A DNA stretch of 53,876 nt from an uncultured Luminiphilus sp. (GTDB taxonomy: Bacteria; Pseudomonadota; Gammaproteobacteria; Pseudomonadales; Halieaceae): NCBI GenBank assembly GCA_905182485.1, contig CAJJBO010000010.1, positions 1 through 53,876 on the forward strand, in the 5' to 3' direction. How positions within the stretch are numbered: position 1 is the first letter of the stretch; every line of letters begins with the position of its first letter. A program made the position numbers and the translations under genes. Below are positions 29,014-42,577 of this stretch, one piece after another. The notes under the pieces were generated by a model, which saw only the letters and a program-made list of their open reading frames with translations, searched no databases and was not told the origin of the DNA.

Positions 29014-30050
29014 TGCAGCTTAAACCGAATCAACTTGCTGGCCAGCTGAAGAAAGGGCTGACAACGTGTTACCTCGTCTCCGGAGATGAGCCCTTGCTCG
29101 TGCAAGAAGCGGCTGACGCGATTCGTCAGGCGGCACGGGACGGCGGCTATCAAGAACGGCAACGCATTACCATTTCTGGTAAAAGTGACTGGCTCGAGCT
29201 GGGGCATGTCTCCAGCGCGCTGTCGCTGTTCGCTGAGCATAAGTTAATCGAAATTGAACTCCCCAATGGCAAACCGGGTGCAGAGGGCAGCAAAGCACTC
29301 TCTGAGTTTTTAGCCAGTAGCCCCGACGACATCTTACTCATCGTCAGTGGTCGCATTGATAAGCAGTCACAAAAAAGCAAATGGTATACCGGGCTCGATC
29401 AAGCCGGCGTCATCGTACCGATATGGCCTGTCTCTGCCGCTGAATTGCCGGGGTGGATAGCCGCCCGCATGAAGCTGGCTGGATTACAAGCCGATGCCGA
29501 CGCAGTCGCCTTATTGGCTGAACGTTTGGAGGGAAATTTATTGGCCGCCGCGCAAGAGATTGAAAAATTACGGCTGCTGCACGGCGAGCAGACCATATCA
29601 GCCGATATGATTGCCGATACCGTATCGGATAATGCGCGTTACGATGCCTTTCGGCTCGTGGATGTGGCCCTCACCGGTGATGCGCGTGGTGCGATCAGAA
29701 CACTGAGGGGCCTCAAGTCAGAGGCGGTGCAGCCGCCTGTATTGCTATGGGCGCTGGCACGCGAGGTGAGACTGCTCGCTAATCTCAAACGAGATATCGC
29801 CGGGGGCGCTTCGGTTAACACCGCCCTGAATCAACGCGGTGTATGGCGAAGCCGACAGACCCTGATTCAGTCGGCTCTCAAGCGACTTTCAGGGCGGGAT
29901 CTGGCAAAGATGCAGGCATTGACCTTTCAGGCCGATGGCAGCAGCAAAGGGTTTTTAACAGGCGCCCCTTGGGATCTCATGGAGACGCTTGTCGTGGTGA
30001 TGGCTCAAGGCTCTGGCGTGCCGGCGAGTAAAACTGAACGTTTAAAATAG
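29013..30050 (+). CDS. holA: DNA polymerase III delta subunit HolA
   Basis: Clamp-loader subunit that opens the beta sliding clamp. 345 residues. It begins MQLKPNQLAGQLKKGLTTCYLVSGDEPLLVQEAADAIR, the conserved delta N-terminus, and includes VSGRIDKQSQKSKWY in domain I and PPVLLWALAREVRLLANLKR in the collar domain. ATG overlaps the lptE stop. The last 46 bases overlap the 3' end of the convergent MFS gene. Confidence 0.95.
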   Translation: MQLKPNQLAGQLKKGLTTCYLVSGDEPLLVQEAADAIRQAARDGGYQERQRITISGKSDWLELGHVSSALSLFAEHKLIEIELPNGKPGAEGSKALSEFLASSPDDILLIVSGRIDKQSQKSKWYTGLDQAGVIVPIWPVSAAELPGWIAARMKLAGLQADADAVALLAERLEGNLLAAAQEIEKLRLLHGEQTISADMIADTVSDNARYDAFRLVDVALTGDARGAIRTLRGLKSEAVQPPVLLWALAREVRLLANLKRDIAGGASVNTALNQRGVWRSRQTLIQSALKRLSGRDLAKMQALTFQADGSSKGFLTGAPWDLMETLVVVMAQGSGVPASKTERLK

Positions 30051-31271
30051 AGTAATCCGAGGGCACCCAATCCGATCGTGCCCGCCACAGCCGATACCCA
30101 CTCGAAGCCAAAGCCATCGACGCTGGCACCCACGACCGCAGCACCCACTGCGGGGACCCCCATCGCCATCATCGTCCATACGCTCAGTACGCGACCCCTA
30201 AATCGTGGGTTCACCGTCAACTGAATGAGCGTCTGACATCCGGTACCCGCCACCGTCGTCATCGTACTCAAGCACGATACCCAACAGCCCATAGCCACCA
30301 CGCCAGCGACCCACTGCAAACTCATCAGCGTCAAACACGCTAGCGCAATAGCGCCGTAAACCAGTCCCAGCAAACGCGCCAAGTTGGCTGACTGGCGGCT
30401 CACCAACAGCCCGCCCAGTACAGAGCCGAGGCCCGCCATCGCGACTAAAATAGCCAGCTCAGACGAACCCCCTCTTAGCACCTGCCCTGACAAGGCCGGC
30501 AGTAATTCAATGATCGTGCGACCCAGCACCCCATTGAGCGCCGTAAACAGCAACAGTAACTTCAGATCAGTTTGACGAATCAAGTGCCGAAACCCATCAG
30601 ACAACTGTATCCAGTATGAGTTGGGAGCCTCTGGAACCGCGTCGCGCACCACCGTGAGCCGGGAGAGCCCCGCAAATGAAGTGATGAACAGCAGCATAGA
30701 CACCAGCCAAGCAAAGGCGGTCTCCGTTTGAGCCACCAAAGCCGCGCCGATTGCCGGCCCGATCATGCGCGCTACGTTAAATGACATCGTGGAATAGCCG
30801 ACAGCGCTGGGTAAAGCAGCCCGCGGGACAAGCAAGGGCACCATGGCAAGACGCATCGGTGAGTGCAGTGAGGTGGCAATACCCAAGGCAGTGGCCAAAC
30901 CCGCGAGTGCAAAGCGGTCGTACCACGCCAGCCAAGTGGTGATCGCGCCCACCAGCGCGATAGTGCTATGAATCAGCATAGAAAGCCGCAAACCCTGTCG
31001 AGGATTGACGCGATCCGACAAAATACCAAACCAAGGCGACAACAGCAGCGCAGGCGCCAACATAAGCGCGCCGGTAATACCGACCCAAGTTGCTGAGTGA
31101 GTGAGGTCCCAAGCACCTCCAGCCCAGTAAAAAGCGCAATAACCAGGCGCCCAAGCTCGAAAACCAGCTCACAGGGTAGTAATGACGAAACCGCGCATCT
31201 GATAACGCAGATCGATGCACCTGTCGCATTTCACGACGGTCAGAAAAATCCTCACTTGATTTTTTTGTCAT
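30005..31271 (-). CDS. MFS transporter (frameshifted near N-terminus)
   Basis: Major facilitator, MFS_3/EntS-like, with 12 predicted helices over ~420 residues. The inter-helix motif after TM2 is FGILSDRVNPRQGL (the G-x-x-x-D-R-x-x-R-R type loop). The first helix (SSLGAWLLRFLLGW) lies in another frame, with a break near 31120. The start is taken as ATG 31271, whose codon sits 7 bases from the LexA operator shared with imuA; ATG 31229 (MRQVHRSALSDARF) is an alternative closer to typical family N-termini. No Shine–Dalgarno is obvious for either. Substrate unknown; the family includes siderophore and drug exporters. The 3' end overlaps holA. Confidence 0.8.
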
Positions 31272-31276
31272 GCTGA

Positions 31277-31301
31277 AATACTGTTTATTTATACAGTATT
31301 G
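31277..31301. promoter_or_regulatory. LexA operator (SOS box) of imuA, also adjacent to the MFS gene
   Basis: Core TACTGTTTATTTATACAGTA (31279-31298) matches CTGT-N8-ACAG and extends to AATACTGT...ACAGTATT. It lies 78 bases before the imuA ATG and 7 bases from the putative ATG of the divergent MFS transporter. The 25-base stretch is identical to the one in front of dnaE2. Read in the MFS direction it contains TATAAA, as the imuB operator does. Confidence 0.93.
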
Positions 31302-31378
31302 TTGCAGCCGCTTTTTGATCGGCAATTCCTCTCGAAGGAATGACAAACAAAAACAGCAGTCTAAAACGGGAGTACATC

Positions 31379-32125
31379 ATGAATTATCTACTCGAAGACA
31401 TTTTTCGCCGCGCCGATACTTGGCAGGGTATGAGCCAGAAAGATCGCGTTTTCTTGGATCCCAGCGCACCGTCGGCCAATGCAGGGGCGCACTCAGCTCA
31501 AGCTATCGCAACCGGTTTTGACGCGCTCGATGCACAACTGTACAGCAGTGGGTGGCCGCTGGGGGGATGTATCGAGGTCATTAGTGACCAGTGCGGGCTC
31601 GATGCGATGGGCGTATTCATGCCCACCATGAAAAAACTCTCTGGCCAATCGCGCTGGCAAGTCTTTATTGATCCTCCCTACACGCCTTATGCCCCTCTAC
31701 TTGCAGGAGAAGGCATTGATCTGCAAGAAATTATGCTGGTGCACCCGCGCAATCGTGAGGAGCTACTGTGGTCAGTTGAACAGGCACTACGCAGTAGCAC
31801 CTGTAGTACGGTCTTTGCTTGGCTTGGCGCCACTGATTATCGTTATGCAGAGTTGCGGAAAATTCAGTTGGCTGCAGCCAGCCATGGCACATTAGCCATA
31901 CTGTTCCGATCCTCGGAAGCATTGGCACAACCCTCTCCTGCCAGCCTAAAAATCCACGTTGAAGGCTATCGAAAAGTTAAAATTATTAAGCAACGAGGCG
32001 GTATTCAAAGTGCGACGATCCCATTACCGGGCAATGAGTCACTGCCTATCGCCCACACTGAATGGTCCTTTATCGACCAGTTAGACAACCGTCAGTCCAC
32101 GCCAGATTATCGCCCTTCTGCCTGA
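31379..32125 (+). CDS. imuA: ImuA, SOS mutasome accessory protein (RecA-like)
   Basis: 248 residues. ATG 31379 is preceded by GGGAG at a 6-base distance, better placed than the in-frame ATG at 31340. The segment ATGFDALDAQLYSSGWPLGGCIEVISDQ is the ImuA version of the RecA/SulA-type fold; no Walker A GKT is present. Later VFAWLGATDYRYAELRKIQLAA is also characteristic. ImuA supports ImuB and DnaE2 (ImuC) in DNA-damage-induced mutagenic translesion synthesis. Here imuB lies more than 5 kb away, unlike the usual imuA–imuB–dnaE2 operon. Confidence 0.9.
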   Translation: MNYLLEDIFRRADTWQGMSQKDRVFLDPSAPSANAGAHSAQAIATGFDALDAQLYSSGWPLGGCIEVISDQCGLDAMGVFMPTMKKLSGQSRWQVFIDPPYTPYAPLLAGEGIDLQEIMLVHPRNREELLWSVEQALRSSTCSTVFAWLGATDYRYAELRKIQLAAASHGTLAILFRSSEALAQPSPASLKIHVEGYRKVKIIKQRGGIQSATIPLPGNESLPIAHTEWSFIDQLDNRQSTPDYRPSA

Positions 32126-32256
32126 CCGCGACTGTTCACTGTGCAGGACCTCTAATGCCGTTACTTTAAATTGCAGCGGCTTTCATGGCTGATGGCGTAT
32201 GGCTTATGCCAAGTGAACAGCCTATGTTAGCCTTCGCTTTTTTTAACGAGACATCC

Positions 32257-32694
32257 ATGCACGATTTTCCTCACCACTATCGTTGCGTCGCCACCGCAAA
32301 TGCCAGCCAATCAGTCGTTCAGGTTGCTAGCGATGGACTGGTAACCCTCTCTACTGACGCCCCAAGAGAATTTGGGGGTCCTGGGGACCAATGGTCGCCG
32401 GAGGCGCTATTGATTGCCGCTGTGGCAGACTGCTTTGTCTTGACCTTCCGCGCGATCGCAGCGCCCTCCCGCGTCACCTGGCATGCCATTGACTGCGAGG
32501 CTACCGGCACACTAGAGCGCATTGATCGGACACCCCAATTCACTGAAATTCGTCTCGCGATTCGTATCAGCGTACCAAGTGACATGGAAGAGGAGCGAAT
32601 GACACGGGTCCTAGAGAAAGCGGAAAAAAGCTGCCTCATCACTAATTCATTGACCGCGACGGTGCACCTTGATGTCGAGATTAATCGCGAGTAA
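32257..32694 (+). CDS. OsmC/Ohr-family protein
   Basis: 145 residues from ATG 32257 (MHDFPHHYRCVATAN). OsmC fold with WSPEALLIAAVADCFVLTFRA, where the first redox Cys sits on the central helix, and AEKSCLITNSLTATVHL with the second Cys. Family members reduce organic hydroperoxides with thiols. This version is the general OsmC-like branch rather than clear Ohr. In-frame upstream Met codons (32185, 32224) precede a segment without family similarity. Its position between imuA and katG adds a second oxidative-stress gene to this block. Confidence 0.85.
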   Translation: MHDFPHHYRCVATANASQSVVQVASDGLVTLSTDAPREFGGPGDQWSPEALLIAAVADCFVLTFRAIAAPSRVTWHAIDCEATGTLERIDRTPQFTEIRLAIRISVPSDMEEERMTRVLEKAEKSCLITNSLTATVHLDVEINRE

Positions 32695-32818
32695 CGGCAT
32701 CACCGTTAGCCATGCTGCAAACCATTATCATCTGCCGACCTAACAGAGCGCTTTGCTTAACGGAGTGCTTTAATCGCGGCGCTGCCAGTGACCCAACTCA
32801 CTGTCTCATCTGACGAAG

Positions 32819-32863
32819 CGTCATTTCATAAAACGCCACTGCATAAAACGTCATCTCATAATT
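32819..32863. repeat. Three tandem 15-bp units between osmC-like gene and katG
   Basis: Three head-to-tail units at 32819-32833, 32834-32848 and 32849-32863, with consensus CGTCATNTCATAAAA. The middle unit differs at three positions and the last unit at its end. It lies between convergent genes, so both transcripts would cross it. No stem-loop results, and I see no role. Confidence 0.7.
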
Positions 32864-32902
32864 ATCAGGCGGCTGCGGGGTTTTTTATGACGCCACACCT
32901 GG

Positions 32903-35164
32903 TTACGGTGTCACACTGACCACGACGTTACCAGACTCCTCGATATCAAATCGATCGGCGTTCATCACTTTGGTCCATGCACTCGCAAAGTCTTTCACAA
33001 AGCGCTGTCGACTTTCATCAAAAGCGTAAAACTCCACCACCGCACGCAACTCCGCATTAGAACCCAGTACGAGATCGAATTCTGTGGCAGTCCATTTAAG
33101 ATCACCCGTTTGGCGGTCACGCCCTTCAAACACATACGCCTCATCTGAGGGCGCCCAAGCCGTCGTCATATCCAGCAAGTGGATAAAGAAATCATTGCTG
33201 AGCACCCCTGGACGATCGGTCAATACGCCGTGAGTACTTCCCTCGGCGTTTGCATTGAGTCCCCGCATGCCACCCAACAATACGGTCATTTCTGACACAG
33301 TCAGGTTCAATCTATCGGCTTTATCAATCAGTGCCTGGGCGGGCGTCATAAAGCCCAAATTAGCCATGTAATTGCGAAAACCATCATGCCGCGGTTCAAG
33401 CACGGCCATCGACTCGTTATCCACCGACCCCTCCAGCGCATCCACGCGACCCGGTGTAAACGGAATCGACACTGTGATCCCAAATGCTGCTGCAGCACGC
33501 TCCACACCGACATTGCCGGACAATACAATGACATCCGCTAGGGCGACCTGCTTGCCGCGAGACAAGGTCGCGTTGAAGTCATCCTGTACTTGCTCAAGCA
33601 CCGACAACACCTCAGATAACGCATCGGGGTCATTCACTGCCCACTGGTTCTGAGGCGCCAATCGAATACGTGCACCATTCGCACCACCACGCATATCGGT
33701 ACCGCGATAGGTGGCAGCGGAGGCCCAAGCGGTCGCTACCAGCTGAGTGTTGCTGAGCCCCGTCTCGGCAATCGCCCCTTTAAGCTTGGCGATATCGCGA
33801 TCACTGATCACTTTATAACGGCGGTCTGGCAGTGGGTCCTGCCAAGCCAAGGTTTCCTCGGGCACATCTGCACCGAGATAACGCACTTTGGGTCCCATAT
33901 CACGATGGGTGAGCTTGAACCAAGCCTTGGCGAAGGCGAGCTCAAACTCCTGCGGGTTAGCGAGGAAACGCTGAGAAATCTCTCGGTAGCTCGGATCAAA
34001 CTTCAGTGAGAGGTCAGTCGTGAACATGACTGGGGCGTGAGATACCTCAGCAAGGTGCGCATCGGGGACCGTGTCCGCCGCAGCATTGCCCTTGGGTTGC
34101 CACTGCAATGCCCCAGCGGGGCTGCGCGTTTGCTCCCAGTCGTAAGCAAAAAGATTGGCCAAGTACATGATCGACCACTGGGTTGGCGTAGCCGTCCAGG
34201 CACCTTCTAAACCAGAGGTTACGGTGTCCTCAGCATTGCCTTTGCCACAGACGTTCTTCCAGCCAAGCCCTTGCTCGCTGATCACCTCGGCAGTCGGCTC
34301 GGGTCCCACACAATCGTCAGGCTTATGCGCACCATGTGCTTTACCAAATGAGTGACCACCAGCGACTAAAGCGACGGTTTCTTCGTCGTTCATCGCCATC
34401 CGGCCAAACGTTTCACGAATGTCATGGGCCGCCAGCACCGGATCAGGGTTACCGTTAGGCCCCTCGGGATTGACATAAATCAGCCCCATCTGAACCGCAG
34501 CGAGTCCTTTGCGCAATTGGCGACCCTCACCGTAACGCTCATCCGCCAGCATCTTAGCTTCGGGGCCCCAATAGACCCATTCAGGCTCCCAGTCGTCTGT
34601 GCGACCACCGGCAAATCCAAAGGTTTTAAAACCCATATTTTCCATCGCAACGTTACCAGCCAGCACCATCAAGTCGGCCCATGAGATTTGGCTACCGTAC
34701 TTTTGCTTGATCGGCCAAAGGAGACGTCGCGCTTTATCGAGATTGCCGTTATCTGGCCAACTGTTCAGTGGCTCAAAACGCTGCTGACCGGCACCCGCAC
34801 CACCACGACCATCACCAGTCCGGTAGGTACCGGCGCTATGCCAGGCCATGCGAACAAAGAAAGGTCCATAGTTACCATAATCAGCAGGCCACCACGCTTG
34901 CGATTGGGTCAGCGTGTCGTTGACGTCGGCCTTCAATGCCTCAAGATCCAGCGTCGCAAAAGCAGACGCGTAATCAAAACTCGCGCCCAAGGGGTTCGCG
35001 TTATGTTCATTCTGCCGAAGCGGGGTCAGGTCAAGCGTCGTCGGCCACCACGCCTGTGCGCTTTTGGGTGTGCTCCGCGCCATCACATCGTGAGCTGGCA
35101 GCGCCATTAGGGTCGCCGCTAACGCCAGATGTGCAATGGCTAAAGTGATTGCGTTGCCTTTCAT
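32903..35164 (-). CDS. katG: Catalase-peroxidase KatG with export signal
   Basis: Bifunctional heme catalase-peroxidase, about 753 residues. Distal site [18 protein letters not shown] gives the catalytic Arg, Trp and His. [14 protein letters not shown] and [12 protein letters not shown] provide the Tyr and Met of the Trp–Tyr–Met crosslink needed for catalase activity. The proximal heme ligand is in [16 protein letters not shown]. The duplicated non-heme C-terminal domain is complete. Starting at ATG 35164 the first ~28 residues ([20 protein letters not shown]...VMA) form a Sec signal peptide, so this looks like a periplasmic KatG, as in KatP-type enzymes. An in-frame Met at 35227 would bury the signal and is less likely. 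It stands alone, convergent with the osmC-like gene. Confidence 0.95.
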
Positions 35165-35243
35165 GATCTTGCAATAAAAAAATAATGTTTTCAGATAATT
35201 GTACCCACTGATCAAAGAAACTAACAAACAAATTAAATAGTAT

Positions 35244-35270
35244 AAATCGATCGGTTTTATCGATCGATTT
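35244..35270. promoter_or_regulatory. Perfect inverted repeat upstream of katG
   Basis: AAATCGATCG, a 7-base spacer, then CGATCGATTT: 10-bp perfect arms, 80 bases before the katG start and 41 bases past the stop of the DUF885 gene. It could be an operator for katG or a transcription terminator of the upstream gene. The T-run expected of an intrinsic terminator is weak, which favours an operator. It does not match a LexA box, and I cannot assign it to OxyR. Confidence 0.5.
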
Positions 35271-35310
35271 ATTGATTTGATGCGGGCCGGTGCTGTAGCG
35301 AGCCATCTGC

Positions 35311-37152
35311 TTATGGCTTCGTAGCCAGCACATCTTGAACCAGTGTTTGAACATGGGCTTCGAGTTGATCGAGGGGCACAGCGCCTGACCCGAGCACCAC
35401 ATCGTGAAAAGCCCGGATATCAAAACGGTCACCCAATGCCTGGCGGGCCATTTCTCTCAATTCAACAATCCGTAACTTGCCGATCATATACGCAGTGGCT
35501 TGCCCGGGCATGGCGATATAACGCTCGATAGCCCGCTGACAGTCATAGACGGCATTTGGCGTATTCGTAACCAAGTACGCCACCGCTTGCGCTCGAGTCC
35601 ATTGTTTATGGTGAAGCCCCGTATCCACTACCAAACGAGCTGCTCGCCAAAGCTCCATCGATAAACGCCCAAAATTGGAATAAGGATCTTGGTAAAAGCC
35701 CATTTCTTTCGCCAAATATTCAGAATAAAGGCCCCAGCCCTCGCTAAACGCGGTGAACCGGGTATGGCGCTGAAAGTCGGGAACATGACTCAGCTCTGCG
35801 GCAATCGCCAGTTGCAAATGATGTCCGGGTAATCCTTCATGAAATGCCAATGCCTCAAGATCTGTCTTAGGCATTGAGTTCATATCGTAAAGATTCGCGT
35901 AGTAAATCCCAGGGCGAGACTCGTCTGATGGCGGGCGTTGATAAAACGCCTTACCTGCTGACCGCTCACGATACGCCTCGACGCGTTTTACCACTAATTC
36001 TGCCCGAGGCAGAACGCCAAAATACGCTGGCAACCGCTTCGCCATATCATCAATCGCCGTTCTCGCGGCGTCGAGATAGGCCGATCGCCCCTCCTCAGTA
36101 TTAGGGAACCGCAAAGCCTGATCACTTCTGACTCGCTCTAGAAACGCTGATAAATCGCCGCGTTCACCCAGCTCAGCCATCACAGCGCGCATTTCACTGT
36201 GCAACCGCTCAACATTGTCGAGCCCCGCTTGATGAATTTCTGCTGCCGTTAAACTCGTGGTAGTAAAGACGTTTAATCGGTTGGCATAGAACGCCTCGCC
36301 GTCGGGAAACCGCCACACTCCGTCCTCGGGCATCGCTCGATCTTGCTGCGACCTGACTGCCGCAATCAACTTTTGGTAGGCAGGCCGCACTGCATTGGAT
36401 AGGGCGCCCCGCGCATCTTCTCGCAGTTGATTCATCTCGGCTGGTGTTAATGCCAGTTGGTCTAGTTTGTCGTTGAAGTCAGCCCAAATCACTGACGGTT
36501 CATCGCCAGAATCAAAGGGGGCCCCCAGCAACACATTGGTCGCCGACTCGATGATTTTTGGGATCATCCAATCGACTAAGAAAAGTCCTTTATCAGCACG
36601 AATCTGTATCTGCTCAACCACACCGTCAAAATAGAGGGGCAAATTATTCAGACGCGCGATGTACGCCTCGGCATCTTGCTTCGAGTTGATGGCGTGAACA
36701 TTGATGAGCAGACTCACTGGGCTGGTATGCGGCCCGCGAAACTGATGAATCACATAACGATGATGACGAAAAGGGGCGCCCGCCAGCGTGCGCTCGAGGT
36801 CAAGTCGGTACAATCGATAGGACAATAAGCGGTCCTCCGATAACTGGGAGGTGTCGATACCGTTGAGAAAATCCAGTCGCTGTCGAGTGATTGCCAGCGA
36901 CGCCAGCTGGAAAGACTCCGTGACATCATTCCACTGATCCTGGCGGTCGTTCACGCCTAGGTAACTGGCAGAAGCAGGATAACGAACGAGATCTTCTTCC
37001 CAAGTGGCCGTGAAGAAATCTTCTAGTCGCTGCTGCTCAGCTGAAACGGGGGGGGTTAATGCCGCTTCAGGTAGCGCATTGGAATCGGACCCCCCGCAAG
37101 ACGTCAATAATAGCGCCAAAATGAGCCCAAATGACGAAGTGAAACGGGCCAT
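35311..37152 (-). CDS. DUF885 family lipoprotein, putative metallopeptidase
   Basis: 613 residues from ATG 37152, which gives a lipoprotein signal peptide: [24 protein letters not shown], with Cys after LTS. The earlier Met at 37227 places 25 residues ahead of this signal and is unlikely. The zinc-binding HExxxGH-type motif is [19 protein letters not shown], with [22 protein letters not shown] following, as in DUF885 proteins. These are anchored, probably periplasmic peptidase-like enzymes with few characterised members. It is divergent from imuB, and the intervening DNA holds the imuB SOS palindrome. Confidence 0.88.
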
Positions 37153-37331
37153 CCGGTGACGGATATCGGTCAGATTAGCGATGTTAACAGAGGCATTAGG
37201 GTGGCGATAACGAGAGGCAGTAGGCATGGCAGTTTCTCAAGCAGAGTAGTGGCTAGCTGAAAACTCAGGCAGCTAGTGTGGCAGAAATCGCACCTCTTCT
37301 GGTTGGCTGTCGCTACTTTTTAGTCAACACA

Positions 37332-37371
37332 CCCCACATACTACTGTATAAAAATACAGTAGTATGTGGGG
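37332..37371. promoter_or_regulatory. imuB LexA operator inside a perfect 40-bp palindrome
   Basis: The LexA core TACTGTATAAAAATACAGTA occupies 37342-37361. The inverted repeat is much longer than the operator: 18-base arms at 37332-37349 and 37354-37371 are perfectly complementary around AAAA. The right arm ends at the base before the imuB ATG. A likely -10 TATAAA (37347-37352) lies within the operator, with TCAACA 17 bases upstream as a possible -35, predicting a 5' leader of only about a dozen bases. Confidence 0.93.
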
Positions 37372-38814
37372 ATGTCTCTCTGGCTTTGTCTTCGTTTTGA
37401 TGTCCTCCCTCTGGAAGCCCTGCTACAGCAGCCGGAGCCACAGGATAATCGAGCAACTGTTGTTGTCGCACAACGCCTTGTCGTCGCCTGCGATGATACG
37501 GCCCGCTGTGCTGGTGTCGTACCGGGTCAAGGTGCCAGTACTGCGCAAGCCCTACTCTCACAGTATGACGCCCATATTCTGGAGCGCAGACCTGAGAAAG
37601 AAAGTGCTCTGTTGCAACAGTTAATGACCTGGGCTTATGGACTCTCACCACACTTAGAGCGCTGGCAAAACAATGCCCTGATGATTGAAGTCGGGAGCTG
37701 CTTAACACTTCATCATGGATTGGAGGCATTACTGCAGCGCATTCATAATGAAATGAGTTTGCGCGGCCTCACTGTCAACATGGGGGTCGCGGAGACTCGT
37801 ACAGCGGCCTGGTTACTCAGCCATTGCGACGCCCATTTAGCCTGCCAACCAGAGCAACCTCTCATTGATCGGCTGTCACCCCTACCGCTTACTCTACTCA
37901 GAGACGAATTCCCCACTATTGTCGATCGACTGGAAAAAGCGGGTATTCGTCAATTCTCGCAATTACTTGATATTCCACTAGCCGATATTGGTAAACGCTG
38001 TGGCATTACCTTTGTCGACTGGTTCAATCAGCTGCTAGGCAGACGCCAAGAACCCACTATCGATTATCAACCACCCACCCGCTTTCAAGACACGCTTTGG
38101 TTTGGTTTTGATATTCGCAATCGGCAAGAGCTGCACCCCGCTATGAAGCAACTACTGGTGCATTTCTGCCATTTTCTAGTCAACACTCAACTCACTAGTG
38201 GCGTCATTGAATGGCGCTGCCTTAGGCCAAAAGGCGGCAAGGAATCCTTCAAGGTCTTCTCTGAAACGGCGCATCGACAAACCAAGATCTGGCTGGAACT
38301 GTCCTGTTTGCAACTAGACAACTGGTCCCTCCCCGAGGGTATTGAAGGACTGTCCCTAGTGGCGGATCAACTGCACGAGGCTCTTCCCCCACCACAAGAT
38401 TTGTTTCATGCCGGCAGCCATCAAGCGTCGCGATACGAACTCGCGGATCGGCTACGGAGTCGGCTAGGGCTACAGGCGGTGGGTTACCTCGACTTTCGGA
38501 GAGAACACCTCCCCGAGGATACCGTGATCAAAACGCAGAGCACTCATACGATGAGTCGTCCCGATACCATCGCGTTGGGGCAACGACCATTCTGGCTTCT
38601 ACCTGAGCCACATCCTGTCCATCAAGAAGGAAAAAAGCTGTACTGGAATGGCCTGTTAGACGTCATTCACGGCCCAGAACGCATTGAGGACTGCTGGTGG
38701 AGTAAACCGACTAGCCGCGATTACTACATTGCCCAAACGCCTCAGAAGCAACCCATTTGGCTGTATCAGGATCGCCATAACCGCCGCTGGTATGTACACG
38801 GGCTATTCGCCTAG
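37372..38814 (+). CDS. imuB: ImuB, catalytically inactive Y-family polymerase homologue
   Basis: 480 residues from ATG 37372 (MSLWLCLRFDVLPLEAL); GTG at 37366 would add two. Y-family fold, but the N-terminal Asp motif of active polymerases (D-M-D-x-F/Y) is replaced by CLRFDVLPLEA and no catalytic acidic pair is seen, as in all ImuB proteins. TLWFGFDIRNRQEL is the little-finger region. QRPFWLLPEP near residue 402 is a plausible beta-clamp-binding segment. The C-terminal YVHGLFA is the standard ImuB end. ImuB is the hub linking ImuA, DnaE2 and the clamp. It is controlled by LexA through the adjoining palindrome. Confidence 0.92.
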   Translation: MSLWLCLRFDVLPLEALLQQPEPQDNRATVVVAQRLVVACDDTARCAGVVPGQGASTAQALLSQYDAHILERRPEKESALLQQLMTWAYGLSPHLERWQNNALMIEVGSCLTLHHGLEALLQRIHNEMSLRGLTVNMGVAETRTAAWLLSHCDAHLACQPEQPLIDRLSPLPLTLLRDEFPTIVDRLEKAGIRQFSQLLDIPLADIGKRCGITFVDWFNQLLGRRQEPTIDYQPPTRFQDTLWFGFDIRNRQELHPAMKQLLVHFCHFLVNTQLTSGVIEWRCLRPKGGKESFKVFSETAHRQTKIWLELSCLQLDNWSLPEGIEGLSLVADQLHEALPPPQDLFHAGSHQASRYELADRLRSRLGLQAVGYLDFRREHLPEDTVIKTQSTHTMSRPDTIALGQRPFWLLPEPHPVHQEGKKLYWNGLLDVIHGPERIEDCWWSKPTSRDYYIAQTPQKQPIWLYQDRHNRRWYVHGLFA

Positions 38815-38829
38815 GGCCGATTCCCACAT

Positions 38830-39387
38830 TCACTCAGCAGTTTGATCCAGCCAAACCAGTTCCGCTGGATCAAACTCCAACGCCGTCATGGTCTCGATAA
38901 AATGGCTGCGTAACTCGCTCGTTATGTGAGGCTCCCGAGCAAGCAACCAAAGATAATCTCGATTAAATCCCGAGACGAAGGCGTAGTCATAGTCTTCGCC
39001 TAACTCGAATACGATGTAGCTGCCATAAAATGGGCCAAAAAAAGACACTTTGAGGTGTGCAACATCAGCAGCACCCACCGATTGGGCAACGCCTTCCGCT
39101 TCGCGCCAAGCCCCGTCTTCAGCGTCAAAACCACGATTCAATACCTTAATACTGCCATCAGGATTGAGGTCATAGGTCGCAGTGACCTCACTCAGACCCC
39201 GCTCAAAGCTGTGATCGAGTCGGGCTATCTCATGCCAAGTGCCCAGATAACGGCTTTGATCGAACCCTACCACCGGCTGAATGCCGTCGGGTACACCCGT
39301 ACAGCTCAACAGCGCCAGACCCAAAAAGCCGACCAGCACACTGCGGATACGTTTGATATGACTGAATACCGTTGTCTTTTTCATCAT
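38830..39387 (-). CDS. blc: Outer-membrane lipoprotein of the lipocalin family (Blc)
   Basis: 185 residues. Signal peptide with lipobox LALLSCTGVPDG. The lipocalin GxW motif appears in RYLGTWHEIARLDHSFERGLSEVTATY. Further family features are VLNRGFDAEDGAWREAEGVA, LKVSFFGPFYGSYIVFEL and YAFVSGFNRDYLWLLAREP. Bacterial lipocalins bind fatty acids or lysophospholipids and respond to envelope stress. It is inserted between imuB and dnaE2 on the opposite strand. ATG 39387 or 39384. Confidence 0.93.
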   Translation of the reverse strand: MMKKTTVFSHIKRIRSVLVGFLGLALLSCTGVPDGIQPVVGFDQSRYLGTWHEIARLDHSFERGLSEVTATYDLNPDGSIKVLNRGFDAEDGAWREAEGVAQSVGAADVAHLKVSFFGPFYGSYIVFELGEDYDYAFVSGFNRDYLWLLAREPHITSELRSHFIETMTALEFDPAELVWLDQTAE

Positions 39388-39460
39388 GCGCTCACTGCTA
39401 ACAGACCTTAGTTTACGCTATTTCTTTTTATGCTTTTCATTTGAACCTTAGTACCGCTAG

Positions 39461-39485
39461 AATACTGTTTATTTATACAGTATTG
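39461..39485. promoter_or_regulatory. LexA operator (SOS box) of dnaE2
   Basis: Core TACTGTTTATTTATACAGTA at 39463-39482 with flanking AA and TT, identical over 25 bases to the imuA operator. The GTG start of dnaE2 lies 11 bases after the core, so little or no untranslated leader is possible if transcription starts inside the operator. No Shine–Dalgarno is visible between operator and start. Confidence 0.93.
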
Positions 39486-39493
39486 ATGCCATC

Positions 39494-42400
39494 GTGTACG
39501 CGGAACTTCACTGTTTAAGCCACTTCAGCTTTTTACGCGGCGCCTCAGCACCCGCTGAATTGGTCTCTCGAGCCGCCGAATGCGGCTATCACGCTTTAGC
39601 CGTGACAGACGAGTGCTCCCTTGCAGGCGTCGTTAAAGCACATGTTGCGGCTAAGGAACATCAGCTCAAACTGATCATCGGTAGCGAATTCACATTAACC
39701 GAAGGTATTCGGCTGGTGGCATTGGTCCCTAACCGGGAAGCCTACGGTGAACTCTCCGGCTTAATCAGTCGAGCCCGCAGGCGCTGCCACAAAGGCGAAT
39801 ACACCGTCCATCTGCGCGACATTATTTTTCATCTCAAGCGCTGCTTCCTCATTCTGCTACCCGACGATACCCACAATCAGACTGTTTACTTACAACAATT
39901 AACCCGGCTCTGTAAGGGCCGTGTATGGATCGGCGTCAGTCGCCTACTCGGCAATGATGAATGGCGACGATTTAAGCACCGTTATCATATTGCACAAGCT
40001 TTGCAGATACCGATGGTCGCTTGTGGCGAAGTACAAATGCATACGGCCAAGCGAAAATCGTTGCACGATATTCTTACCGCCATCAAAGCCAATACGCCGA
40101 TACAACAGTTGGGGGCACGTCGATTAATTAATAGTCAGCAACATCTCCGCACGCTCAATACGCTCAATGCGCTCTATCCTGAAACATTGATCACCGAGAC
40201 ACGATATATCGCCGATCAATGCCACTTTAGTCTTGATGAATTGCGATACGAGTATCCAGAAGAAGTCGTTCCTTCACACCACACAGCCAACAGTTATCTG
40301 CGCCAAGAGGTTGCTCATGGCGCTAAGCAACGTTGGCCTGATGGCATTCCCGAAGCTGTCCAAAGCCGGATACATCGAGAACTCGAGCTGATCACTGAAC
40401 TGTCTTACGAATACTACTTCCTGACCGTTTATGACATTGTGCGCTTCGCAAAGTCACGCGATATTCTATGCCAAGGCAGAGGCTCTGCTGCTAACTCGGT
40501 GGTCTGCTATTGCCTACACATCACTGAAGTCTCACCCGAGCAGATCTCACTCCTATTTGAGCGCTTTATCTCTCGTGAACGCGATGAACCCCCCGATATT
40601 GATGTCGATTTTGAGCATGAGAGACGGGAAGAGGTGATTCAGTATATCTATCATAAATACAGTCGCCGCCGCGCTGCACTCGCGGCCGTTGTCATTACTT
40701 ACCGATCACGCAGTGCTGTACGTGATGTAGGCAAAGCCATGGGGTTCGATGCGAGCTTTATCGATGAGCTGGCGAATTCCCTAGCGTGGTGGAATCGTGA
40801 ACGGGAATTAACCCAGCGCTTCGAGCATCAAGGCGTCGTTCGTACTGAAAAACTTGCGGGCCATTTTTTAACCATCGTAAAAGAAATCATTGGCTTTCCT
40901 CGACACCTCTCACAACACGTCGGGGGATTTGTCATCAGCCGAGGCCCCCTTTCCAACCTGGTTCCAGTCGAAAACGCCAGCATGCCGGAACGAACGGTCA
41001 TTCAATGGGATAAAGAAGATATCGAAGCGCTGGGACTCCTTAAAGTCGACATTCTTGCACTGGGTATGCTCTCCGCCATCCGCAAAACATTGGCGCTCTT
41101 GCATCGCGATCATGCCGATATTCAGCGTATTCAAGATATACCACCAGACGACCCCGCCACCTATCGGATGCTACAAAAAGCAGACACGCTGGGTGTTTTT
41201 CAGATTGAGTCTCGAGCGCAAATGTCGATGCTGCCACGGCTAAAACCGAATTGCTTTTATGATCTGGTTATCGAGATCGCTATTGTCAGGCCCGGTCCCA
41301 TTCAGGGCGATATGGTGCACCCCTATCTACGGCGTAAAGCAGGACTGGAATCGATCAGCTATCCCAACCCTGAGATCGAGGCAGTCCTCTCACGCACCTT
41401 AGGGGTCCCTATTTTTCAGGAACAAGTCATTCGGCTTGCAATGGTTGCGGCGGGCTTTACAGGGGGGGAAGCAGATGCCTTGAGACGCGCAATCAGTAAC
41501 TGGGGGAAAAACAGTAAGCTGCTGAGTTTTGAACATAAATTAAAGCAAGGCATGATCAATAAAGGTTATACCCCTGAGTTCGCTGACCGCCTGTTTAATC
41601 AGATTAAGGGGTTTGGGGGATATGGATTCCCAGAGTCACACTCCGCCAGCTTTGCATTATTGGCTTATGTCTCCGCTTGGCTAAAGTGCCATCATCCCGC
41701 CGCCTTTTATGTCGGCCTGCTCAATAGCCAGCCGATGGGGTTTTACTCACCTTCGCAATTAGTACAAGACGCTCAACGGCATCACATTTTAATTTTACCG
41801 ACTGATGTGAATCACAGTGATTGGGACCATCAATTGCTGTCATCAGACGACACCCGACAACCCCCCATACGACTCGGGCTAAGATTAGTTAAAGGCCTGA
41901 GTCAGGCAGCGGGAAAACGCATCTCTGATGTTCGCCGGCAACGCGCTTTTACCAACGTGGCTGATTTGCGCAGACGTGCATCCCTCGATCGCAAAAACAT
42001 GGAGGCACTGGCTGCGGCAGACGCACTCTCGAGTATCAGCGGCCATCGCCATCAAACACACTGGCAGACTATGGCTCTAGAAGATCATCAGCCTCTATTA
42101 CCCGCAGAAGCATCACTGCAGCACGAAGCACGTTCCGAAGTCAGACTACCGACACCCAGTCTAGGCGAAGAAGTACTCGCTGATTATCAGAGTACTGGAC
42201 TGAGCCTGAAGGCACATCCACTCGCGTTATTGCGCACCCAGTATCCTTTTAGCCAATGCACAACGCAAAAAGAACTCATTCGCTTGGGCAATCATCGCTT
42301 TGTCCGTATCGCCGGACTCATCACCTGTCGACAACGTCCAGGAACTGCCTCTGGGGTGGTGTTTCTGACACTAGAGGATGAGACCGGAAATATGAATGTC

Positions 42401-42577
42401 ATTGTCTGGCCAGCCGTGCAGGAACGCTACCGACAGGCCTTAATGACAAGCCAGCTTGTTATTATTAAGGGAACGGTAGAAGCTCGTAATGGCGTTGTCC
42501 ATGTCATTGCCAGTGCACTAGAAAATCATAGCGAGCGGCTTTCGACATTGACCGTGGCATCTCGAGATTTCCATTAA
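39494..42577 (+). CDS. dnaE2: Error-prone DNA polymerase DnaE2 (ImuC)
   Basis: Intact C-family polymerase, 1027 residues. GTG 39494 begins MYAELHCLSHFSFLRGASAPAEL, exactly the usual DnaE2 N-terminus (PHP domain); an in-frame stop 36 bases upstream rules out an earlier start. The polymerase active-site aspartates are in EPPDIDVDFEHERREEV (about residues 362-378), with GRGSAANSVVCYCL before it. A helix-hairpin-helix region and an OB-fold (FVRIAGLITCRQRPG; GVVFLTLEDETG) end the protein. It performs SOS mutagenesis together with ImuA and ImuB. No frameshift is seen. It converges on the CPXCG gene. Confidence 0.95.
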   Translation: MYAELHCLSHFSFLRGASAPAELVSRAAECGYHALAVTDECSLAGVVKAHVAAKEHQLKLIIGSEFTLTEGIRLVALVPNREAYGELSGLISRARRRCHKGEYTVHLRDIIFHLKRCFLILLPDDTHNQTVYLQQLTRLCKGRVWIGVSRLLGNDEWRRFKHRYHIAQALQIPMVACGEVQMHTAKRKSLHDILTAIKANTPIQQLGARRLINSQQHLRTLNTLNALYPETLITETRYIADQCHFSLDELRYEYPEEVVPSHHTANSYLRQEVAHGAKQRWPDGIPEAVQSRIHRELELITELSYEYYFLTVYDIVRFAKSRDILCQGRGSAANSVVCYCLHITEVSPEQISLLFERFISRERDEPPDIDVDFEHERREEVIQYIYHKYSRRRAALAAVVITYRSRSAVRDVGKAMGFDASFIDELANSLAWWNRERELTQRFEHQGVVRTEKLAGHFLTIVKEIIGFPRHLSQHVGGFVISRGPLSNLVPVENASMPERTVIQWDKEDIEALGLLKVDILALGMLSAIRKTLALLHRDHADIQRIQDIPPDDPATYRMLQKADTLGVFQIESRAQMSMLPRLKPNCFYDLVIEIAIVRPGPIQGDMVHPYLRRKAGLESISYPNPEIEAVLSRTLGVPIFQEQVIRLAMVAAGFTGGEADALRRAISNWGKNSKLLSFEHKLKQGMINKGYTPEFADRLFNQIKGFGGYGFPESHSASFALLAYVSAWLKCHHPAAFYVGLLNSQPMGFYSPSQLVQDAQRHHILILPTDVNHSDWDHQLLSSDDTRQPPIRLGLRLVKGLSQAAGKRISDVRRQRAFTNVADLRRRASLDRKNMEALAAADALSSISGHRHQTHWQTMALEDHQPLLPAEASLQHEARSEVRLPTPSLGEEVLADYQSTGLSLKAHPLALLRTQYPFSQCTTQKELIRLGNHRFVRIAGLITCRQRPGTASGVVFLTLEDETGNMNVIVWPAVQERYRQALMTSQLVIIKGTVEARNGVVHVIASALENHSERLSTLTVASRDFH

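Follow-up and report, generated by a model that had tools for sequence, protein, structure and literature searches.

In the window analysed here (the whole stretch of 53,876 nucleotides of contig C10, from a 2.17 Mb, 42-contig, 70%-complete assembly of an uncultured Luminiphilus sp., family Halieaceae), homologues of all three genes of the ImuA-ImuB-DnaE2 translesion mutasome are present, spread across 11 kb, and each is headed by a near-ideal predicted LexA box of its own; a scattering with separate SOS boxes, as the sequence-only reading of this DNA had claimed, is thereby confirmed. The best explanation, and one that we consider highly probable, is that an operon was broken up while its LexA control was kept. 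The order on the plus strand is imuA, osmC, imuB, dnaE2, with katG and a DUF885 gene on the minus strand in the osmC-imuB gap and the lipocalin gene blc, also on the minus strand, in the imuB-dnaE2 gap. The genes are thus neither contiguous nor served by one operator, as in a single imuABC operon, but form the separate units, with a predicted SOS box each, of a split imuABC. The imuA gene (31379-32125, plus strand; alternative upstream ATG at 31340) is recognized by NF033429 with 184 bits (cut-off 150), and its alignment with homologues begins at 31379; dnaE2, also called imuC (39494-42577, plus strand), is recognized by PRK05672 with 1406 bits (cut-off 939). The imuB gene (37372-38814, plus strand; open reading frame from 37366) encodes an IMS domain (PF00817) and takes its name from homologues that adjoin imuA and dnaE2; a match to it was obtained in 134/140 family genomes, among the matches listed. 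Its start is most likely the ATG at 37372, 10 nucleotides (nt) past its box, which corrects the reading frame start at 37366.

The three predicted operators are 20-mers at positions 31279-31298 (imuA, in the divergent interval shared with an MFS gene), 37342-37361 (imuB) and 39463-39482 (dnaE2, identical to that of imuA); with the flanks included, the identity between the operators of imuA and dnaE2 extends over 25 bases (31277-31301 and 39461-39485). The core CTGT-N8-ACAG, which we take to be the usual type of gammaproteobacterial LexA operator, was rejected as evidence of LexA sites when considered alone: it occurs 3 times in the window against 0.81 expected, a number reached by 6/100 shuffles, and 17 times genome-wide against 22 in the reversed control. 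Because the core alone is weak, we relied instead on the 20-mer, on whole genomes and on relatives. With up to 3 mismatches, TACTGTATATATATACAGTA is found at exactly three places in the assembly, which are the mutasome boxes, and at none in the reversed control. The remaining genomic core sites were also discarded as markers of extra SOS genes, since their number is not above that of the control; among 15 core-site loci scanned, three of which are those of the mutasome, an open frame was present nearby in 13, and the non-mutasome ones were unmatched, recA not having been sought. Upstream of the lexA gene of the window genome lies CTGTACAAAACAACAG, followed immediately by a second CTGTATATAT half-site. 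As lexA itself is headed by a core box, which is what we would expect of a gammaproteobacterial LexA regulon, the operator is presumably of the usual type for this class. A lexA gene scored above the family cut-off in 49/57 genus genomes, and at least one core site was present in 28/30 lexA loci examined. In most of these Luminiphilus lexA loci (L123-L152) a second CTGT/ACAG half-site abuts the core site, on either side.

For comparison, we looked for ImuB, DnaE2 and ImuA in 97 relatives, and in 140 family genomes belonging to 28 genera, among the matches listed. Stretches, picked to have unbroken contigs and to represent a range of genera, were taken from 57/57 genus genomes (the window serving for its own genome), 49/83 other family genomes and 18/36 genomes at the level of the order. 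A box was scored if it had 8/8 core bases and two or more of the 4 flank bases, or 7/8 core bases and all 4 flank bases, no more than 300 bp from the start. Among the genus copies with readable upstream sequence, those cut by contig ends being left out, boxes head 53/53 imuA and 55/55 imuB genes, all with 8/8 core, and 55/55 dnaE2 genes (54 at 8/8, one at 7/8). The exact pattern TACTGT-N8-ACAGTA occurs in 57/57 genus genomes, with 3 sites in 38 of them, 2 in 13, 1 in 3, 4 in 2 and 6 in 1, against 0 or 1 in the reversed control. Two genomes assembled as single contigs (G006, G031) have three exact sites each, all at imuA, imuB and dnaE2; a further one (G053) has three in total, and its three mutasome boxes match the pattern. 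The common plan of the genus is MFS(-), imuA(+), imuB(+), blc(-), dnaE2(+), and osmC, katG and DUF885 occupy the imuA-imuB gap only in some members of the genus. Exceptions to it are G049, in which blc is 3.7 kb from dnaE2 and the imuA-imuB gap measures just 310 bp, G010, in which the MFS gene is about 2 kb off, and fragmented genomes with mutasome genes on different contigs. The layout is therefore not peculiar to the window genome; it is ancestral and genus-wide in Luminiphilus, which is the outcome that the sequence-only reading had named as marking an ordinary ancestral arrangement when it proposed comparing gene order.

The presence of an operator follows the separation of the genes. For imuB, adjacency was set at less than 600 bp from imuA; separated genes include those whose previous gene lies outside the stretch, and four cases at contig edges, every one with a box, were excluded. 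Separated imuB genes have a box of their own in 1/2 outgroup, 33/33 family and 53/53 genus cases, versus 0/16, 0/11 and 1/1 (G049) of those adjacent to imuA; for dnaE2 the corresponding values are 2/2, 32/43 and 54/54 when separated, versus 0/14 outgroup and 0/2 family cases when adjacent to imuB, there being no adjacent case in the genus. In the outgroups, own boxes are thus found in 0/30 adjacent imuB or dnaE2 genes. Pooling all cases gives 175/187 separated versus 1/44 adjacent genes with their own box (Fisher p = 1.6e-34, calculated on gene instances with kinship ignored), in support of the earlier suggestion that selection may keep induction coordinated. Twelve separated genes lack a box: the imuB of outgroup G082 and eleven dnaE2 genes of the family. 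In another outgroup (G088) imuA and imuB are 4.4 kb apart, and imuB has its own box (7/8 core).

As regards the direction of the change, a compact imuA-imuB-dnaE2 cassette, in the same order, is present in 12/18 order-level outgroups examined, and all three genes are apart in Luminiphilus and in most other family lineages. In a FastTree phylogeny of the N-terminal parts of DnaE2, lineages in which imuA and imuB are together mostly have near-basal positions in the family clade; those with imuA beside imuB and dnaE2 apart (G103, G105, G097/G100, G131/G132, G135/G148) branch early. This tree fits a stepwise break-up. The sequence-only reading had left the choice between an operon that was broken up and one that was never assembled; the former is favoured by the compact outgroup cassettes, by their unboxed adjacent genes and by the early lineages in which only dnaE2 is split off. 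That three LexA-controlled genes never formed an operon in this lineage and lie close by chance appears very unlikely: although no native fully compact cassette occurs among the family stretches examined, such an origin sits poorly with the order shared by the outgroup cassettes, with the early-branching family lineages that keep imuA and imuB joined and imuB without a box, and with the gene order and strand preserved in the window. Two compact cassettes in the family (G058, G169) were rejected as examples of the ancestral state; their DnaE2 groups, apart from the rest of the family, with that of outgroup G084 (support 0.99), and both genomes have elsewhere a second, orphan, more family-like imuA, with a LexA box in each (L112, L239), so that these cassettes are best read as imports. 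Several points weigh against a broken-up operon with retained control. The contrast of 175/187 to 1/44 is one of gene instances and takes no account of their kinship; the imuB of G082, whose imuA lies on a different contig, counts as separated yet scores no box, although a degenerate TACTGC-N8-GCAGTA is present; G110 branches early, yet its imuA and imuB are on different contigs; G150 is nested and has imuA and imuB adjacent, whereas in G158, next to it in the tree, they are apart; several nodes of the DnaE2 tree have support below 0.65; and LexA binding and induction are predictions from sequence alone. G060 could not be placed for layout, its imuA and imuB both being at contig ends.

According to the break-up scenario, an ancestral LexA-controlled imuA-imuB-dnaE2 operon would have come apart stepwise in Halieaceae, with dnaE2 parting from imuB in a first step and imuA from imuB in a second. 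Separation would have occurred through the insertion of unrelated genes, mostly on the opposite strand (in the window osmC, DUF885, katG and blc), with order and orientation retained in Luminiphilus. Each new transcription unit would have ended up with a strong LexA operator of its own or, in some relatives, with dnaE2 behind a box-headed integron-integrase gene. LexA presumably represses all the units and releases them together upon damage; coordination would then be held by operator sequence rather than by co-transcription.

The latter arrangement would account for the family dnaE2 genes that are separated and lack a box: all eleven sit directly behind a gene with an integron-integrase C-terminal motif (L193, L200, L205, L218, L222, L231, L237, L246, L247, L185, L114), and the TIGR02249 profile gave 410 and 399 bits (cut-off 265) on two of these integrase-like genes. 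A LexA box is found at the head of the integrase-like gene, about 700-1030 bp before dnaE2, in 9/11 cases (G126, G135, G140, G150, G163, G164, G168, G174, G059); in G111 the box is 329 bp upstream of dnaE2 and the integrase frame appears damaged, and in G144 the stretch is too short to tell. Some genomes also have an integrase-like gene upstream of a dnaE2 with its own box (e.g. G148, G149, G155). In these Halieaceae intI and dnaE2 possibly constitute an SOS-controlled operon, and their co-transcription would join cassette shuffling and point mutation under one switch. In several other genera the start codon of dnaE2 is 1-2 nt past the LexA box (L189, L191, L203, L207, L216, L224, L220, L226, L232), and an element resembling TTGAC often precedes the box by some 10 nt; this suggests that the dnaE2 message may be leaderless there.

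The imuB operator of the window is the centre of a 40-bp perfect inverted repeat (37332-37371; two 18-nt arms and a 4-nt loop) that ends at the start codon; beyond the box its arms read CCCCACATAC and GTATGTGGGG. Fold-back structures are known to protect the transposase genes of IS10 against outside transcription, and a comparable possibility is that RNA reading through from upstream forms an 18-bp hairpin that buries the imuB start codon, while the LexA-controlled transcript, assumed to begin inside the operator, would be without the left arm and hence translated. The two are alike in that a hairpin would arise solely when a transcript reads through and would then conceal the site where translation begins; IS10 is a transposon, which the imuB palindrome is not, and the latter centres on a LexA operator and has a putative function. 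We regard such insulation as improbable; the observations in its favour are as follows. Across 49 distinct genus sequences the imuB arms covary with a score of 0.620 versus 0.192 for shuffled ones (0/500 shuffles as high; at most 0.202 for slid versions), with a tool by which related sequences can exceed shuffles, and double changes occur at all ten outer pairs. The mean perfect run beyond the 20-mer drops from 6.42 to 1.87 if imuB arms are swapped between species (n = 55), versus 1.06 and 1.08 for the imuA control (n = 53); the picture at dnaE2 is mixed, with 2.89 and 1.66 (n = 55). One parsimony reconstruction on an ImuB tree has a pair replaced by another pair, through a double change, 44 times at imuB, 18 times at dnaE2 and 2 times at imuA. 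The pairing of the arms extends to the usual site of the start codon, reaching background by about position 10-11, and by computation an RNA with both arms folds over the start codon at -33 kcal/mol (z -7.9), versus -5.4 kcal/mol (z 0.18) for one that begins inside the box. A covarying repeat that would cover the start codon is a property of imuB in the genus only, and not of most palindromes outside it.

Other observations are more readily reconciled with an origin of the palindromes by DNA-polymerase template switching at the inverted repeat of the operator, for which no function is needed and to which we assign a little less than an even chance. According to one study (PMC8794818), perfect stems, and compensatory changes of several bases, can arise by template switching. 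Outside the genus, runs of at least 6 occur sporadically at all three genes (imuA 6/49, imuB 7/35, dnaE2 5/33, with swapped-arm means of 0.17, 0.49 and 0.34 and a maximum of 3 each), and 15/18 of these long palindromes are 40-85 nt from the start codon, too far to cover it; occlusion of the start codon was for this reason set aside as an explanation for the family as a whole. At imuB the pairing fades gradually outward from the box, and the parsimony reconstruction infers 65 changes from pair to mismatch there, with 69 at dnaE2 and 37 at imuA (50, 50 and 45 tips). The ratio of G.T to A.C mismatches in the imuB arms, 15 to 9, shows no clear bias toward the RNA strand, and strand-biased wobble was dropped as a proof of action at the RNA level. 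The dnaE2 genes of clade A also start beside their box, yet have runs of at least 6 in 0/23 cases, versus 9/32 in clade B, and the transcription start on which insulation depends is an assumption. Template switching, in turn, does not readily explain why such runs are present at 33/55 imuB but 0/53 imuA operators of Luminiphilus, even though 15 genomes have one and the same 20-bp duplex as both operators, in opposite orientation, nor why runs exceeding 3 are missing from the core sites of the 30 lexA loci; outer arms like those of imuB are likewise not seen at the Luminiphilus lexA loci. In its fullest form, in which the imuB operator would form the centre of a hairpin that varies between species, has been re-paired again and again, and keeps transcripts from non-SOS promoters from being translated, a combined transcriptional and translational lock built when the break-up exposed the gene to read-through, the functional interpretation is slightly less probable still.

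The broken-up operon with retained LexA control can be compared with known systems. In Pseudomonas putida, lexA2-imuA-imuB-imuC is described as a single transcription unit in the available text of PMC3901139; that cassette has the same three genes and order and LexA control (predicted here), with one unit where the window has three units and three predicted operators. The mycobacterial imuA'-imuB and dnaE2 are split units, each under LexA, in the portions available of PMC3901139 and PMC10421592; they resemble the window in having separate LexA-controlled units (predicted here), but are two rather than three, have imuA' in place of imuA, and the units in the window are syntenic within 11 kb. 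For the ruvCAB and uvrA-ssb units of Vibrionaceae, the accessible part of PMC3323433 reports genes inserted into SOS units and independent LexA sites in some species, both of which are likenesses to the window, and an apparent loss of LexA control of ruvC after operon disruption; in Luminiphilus, by contrast, every separated unit examined keeps its box. According to a review (PMC3901139), nearly every configuration occurs, among them imuA, imuB and imuC at distinct loci with an SOS box each, and the layout of the window is thus one more example of an arrangement already described. What is added here is the quantified association between separation and box, the stepwise series, the covarying palindromes and the intI-dnaE2 neighbourhood. 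Among the matches listed, titles and abstract openings of open-licence PMC papers contain no report of a Halieaceae mutasome, an intI-dnaE2 operon or LexA-operator hairpins; likewise they contain none of the separation-box association or the stepwise series. Halieaceae would offer a natural series of a regulon replacing an operon, in which joined genes share one operator and separated genes have one each. As a unit outside LexA control should raise mutation, it becomes testable whether control over error-prone polymerase genes is unusually strict. If they are functional, the covarying palindromes would lock mutagenesis a second time; if mutational, they would preserve template switching in a compact natural record.

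The promoters of the three genes may differ in strength. In the window, imuA has a TTG at 31256-31258 that is separated by a 17-nt spacer from the left half of the box, TACTGT, a putative -10 element. In the genus a TTG placed 23 nt ahead of the box, with a 17-nt spacer, precedes 52/53 imuA, 9/55 imuB and 1/55 dnaE2 copies; a TTG at 23 or 24 nt is found for 20/55 imuB, and one at 22 or 23 nt for 5/55 dnaE2 copies. The distance from the end of the box to the start codon is 9-16 nt (median 10) for imuB, 5-18 (median 10) for dnaE2 and 45-162 (median 69) for imuA, as measured to the residue aligned with the first of the window protein, from which the true start may differ by a few codons. These differences would fit unequal promoters of imuA, imuB and dnaE2; for the unequal dosage that the sequence-only reading had proposed, the TTG pattern gives the sole hint. 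We find it rather unlikely, though worth considering, that each operator also controls the divergent neighbour (the MFS gene, DUF885 and blc, respectively), which would then belong to the SOS regulon: all three boxes lie in divergent intervals, and in the clade of the window the putative start codon of the MFS gene and the imuA box are some 7 nt apart, but blc and DUF885 lie at varying distances and in some cases are not neighbours at all.

Of the genes that intervene in the window, the OsmC-like one between imuA and imuB (32257-32694, plus strand; open reading frame from 32185; PF02566) is at the same place in many relatives and missing there in others, and katG (32903 to about 35164, minus strand; TIGR00198, 1061 bits, cut-off 770) is not at this place in part of the genus. 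The DUF885 lipoprotein-like gene (35311-37227, minus strand; PF05960, 590 bits) is divergent to imuB, and the Blc-type lipocalin gene (38830-39387, minus strand; PF08212, 127 bits, with PRK10477 under its cut-off) is divergent to dnaE2. The MFS gene divergent to imuA (30005-31272, minus strand) has a broken frame in the window, with a one-base difference in length from close relatives; the frame is intact in the listed relatives of the clade, and the break in the window is either a real change or an assembly error.

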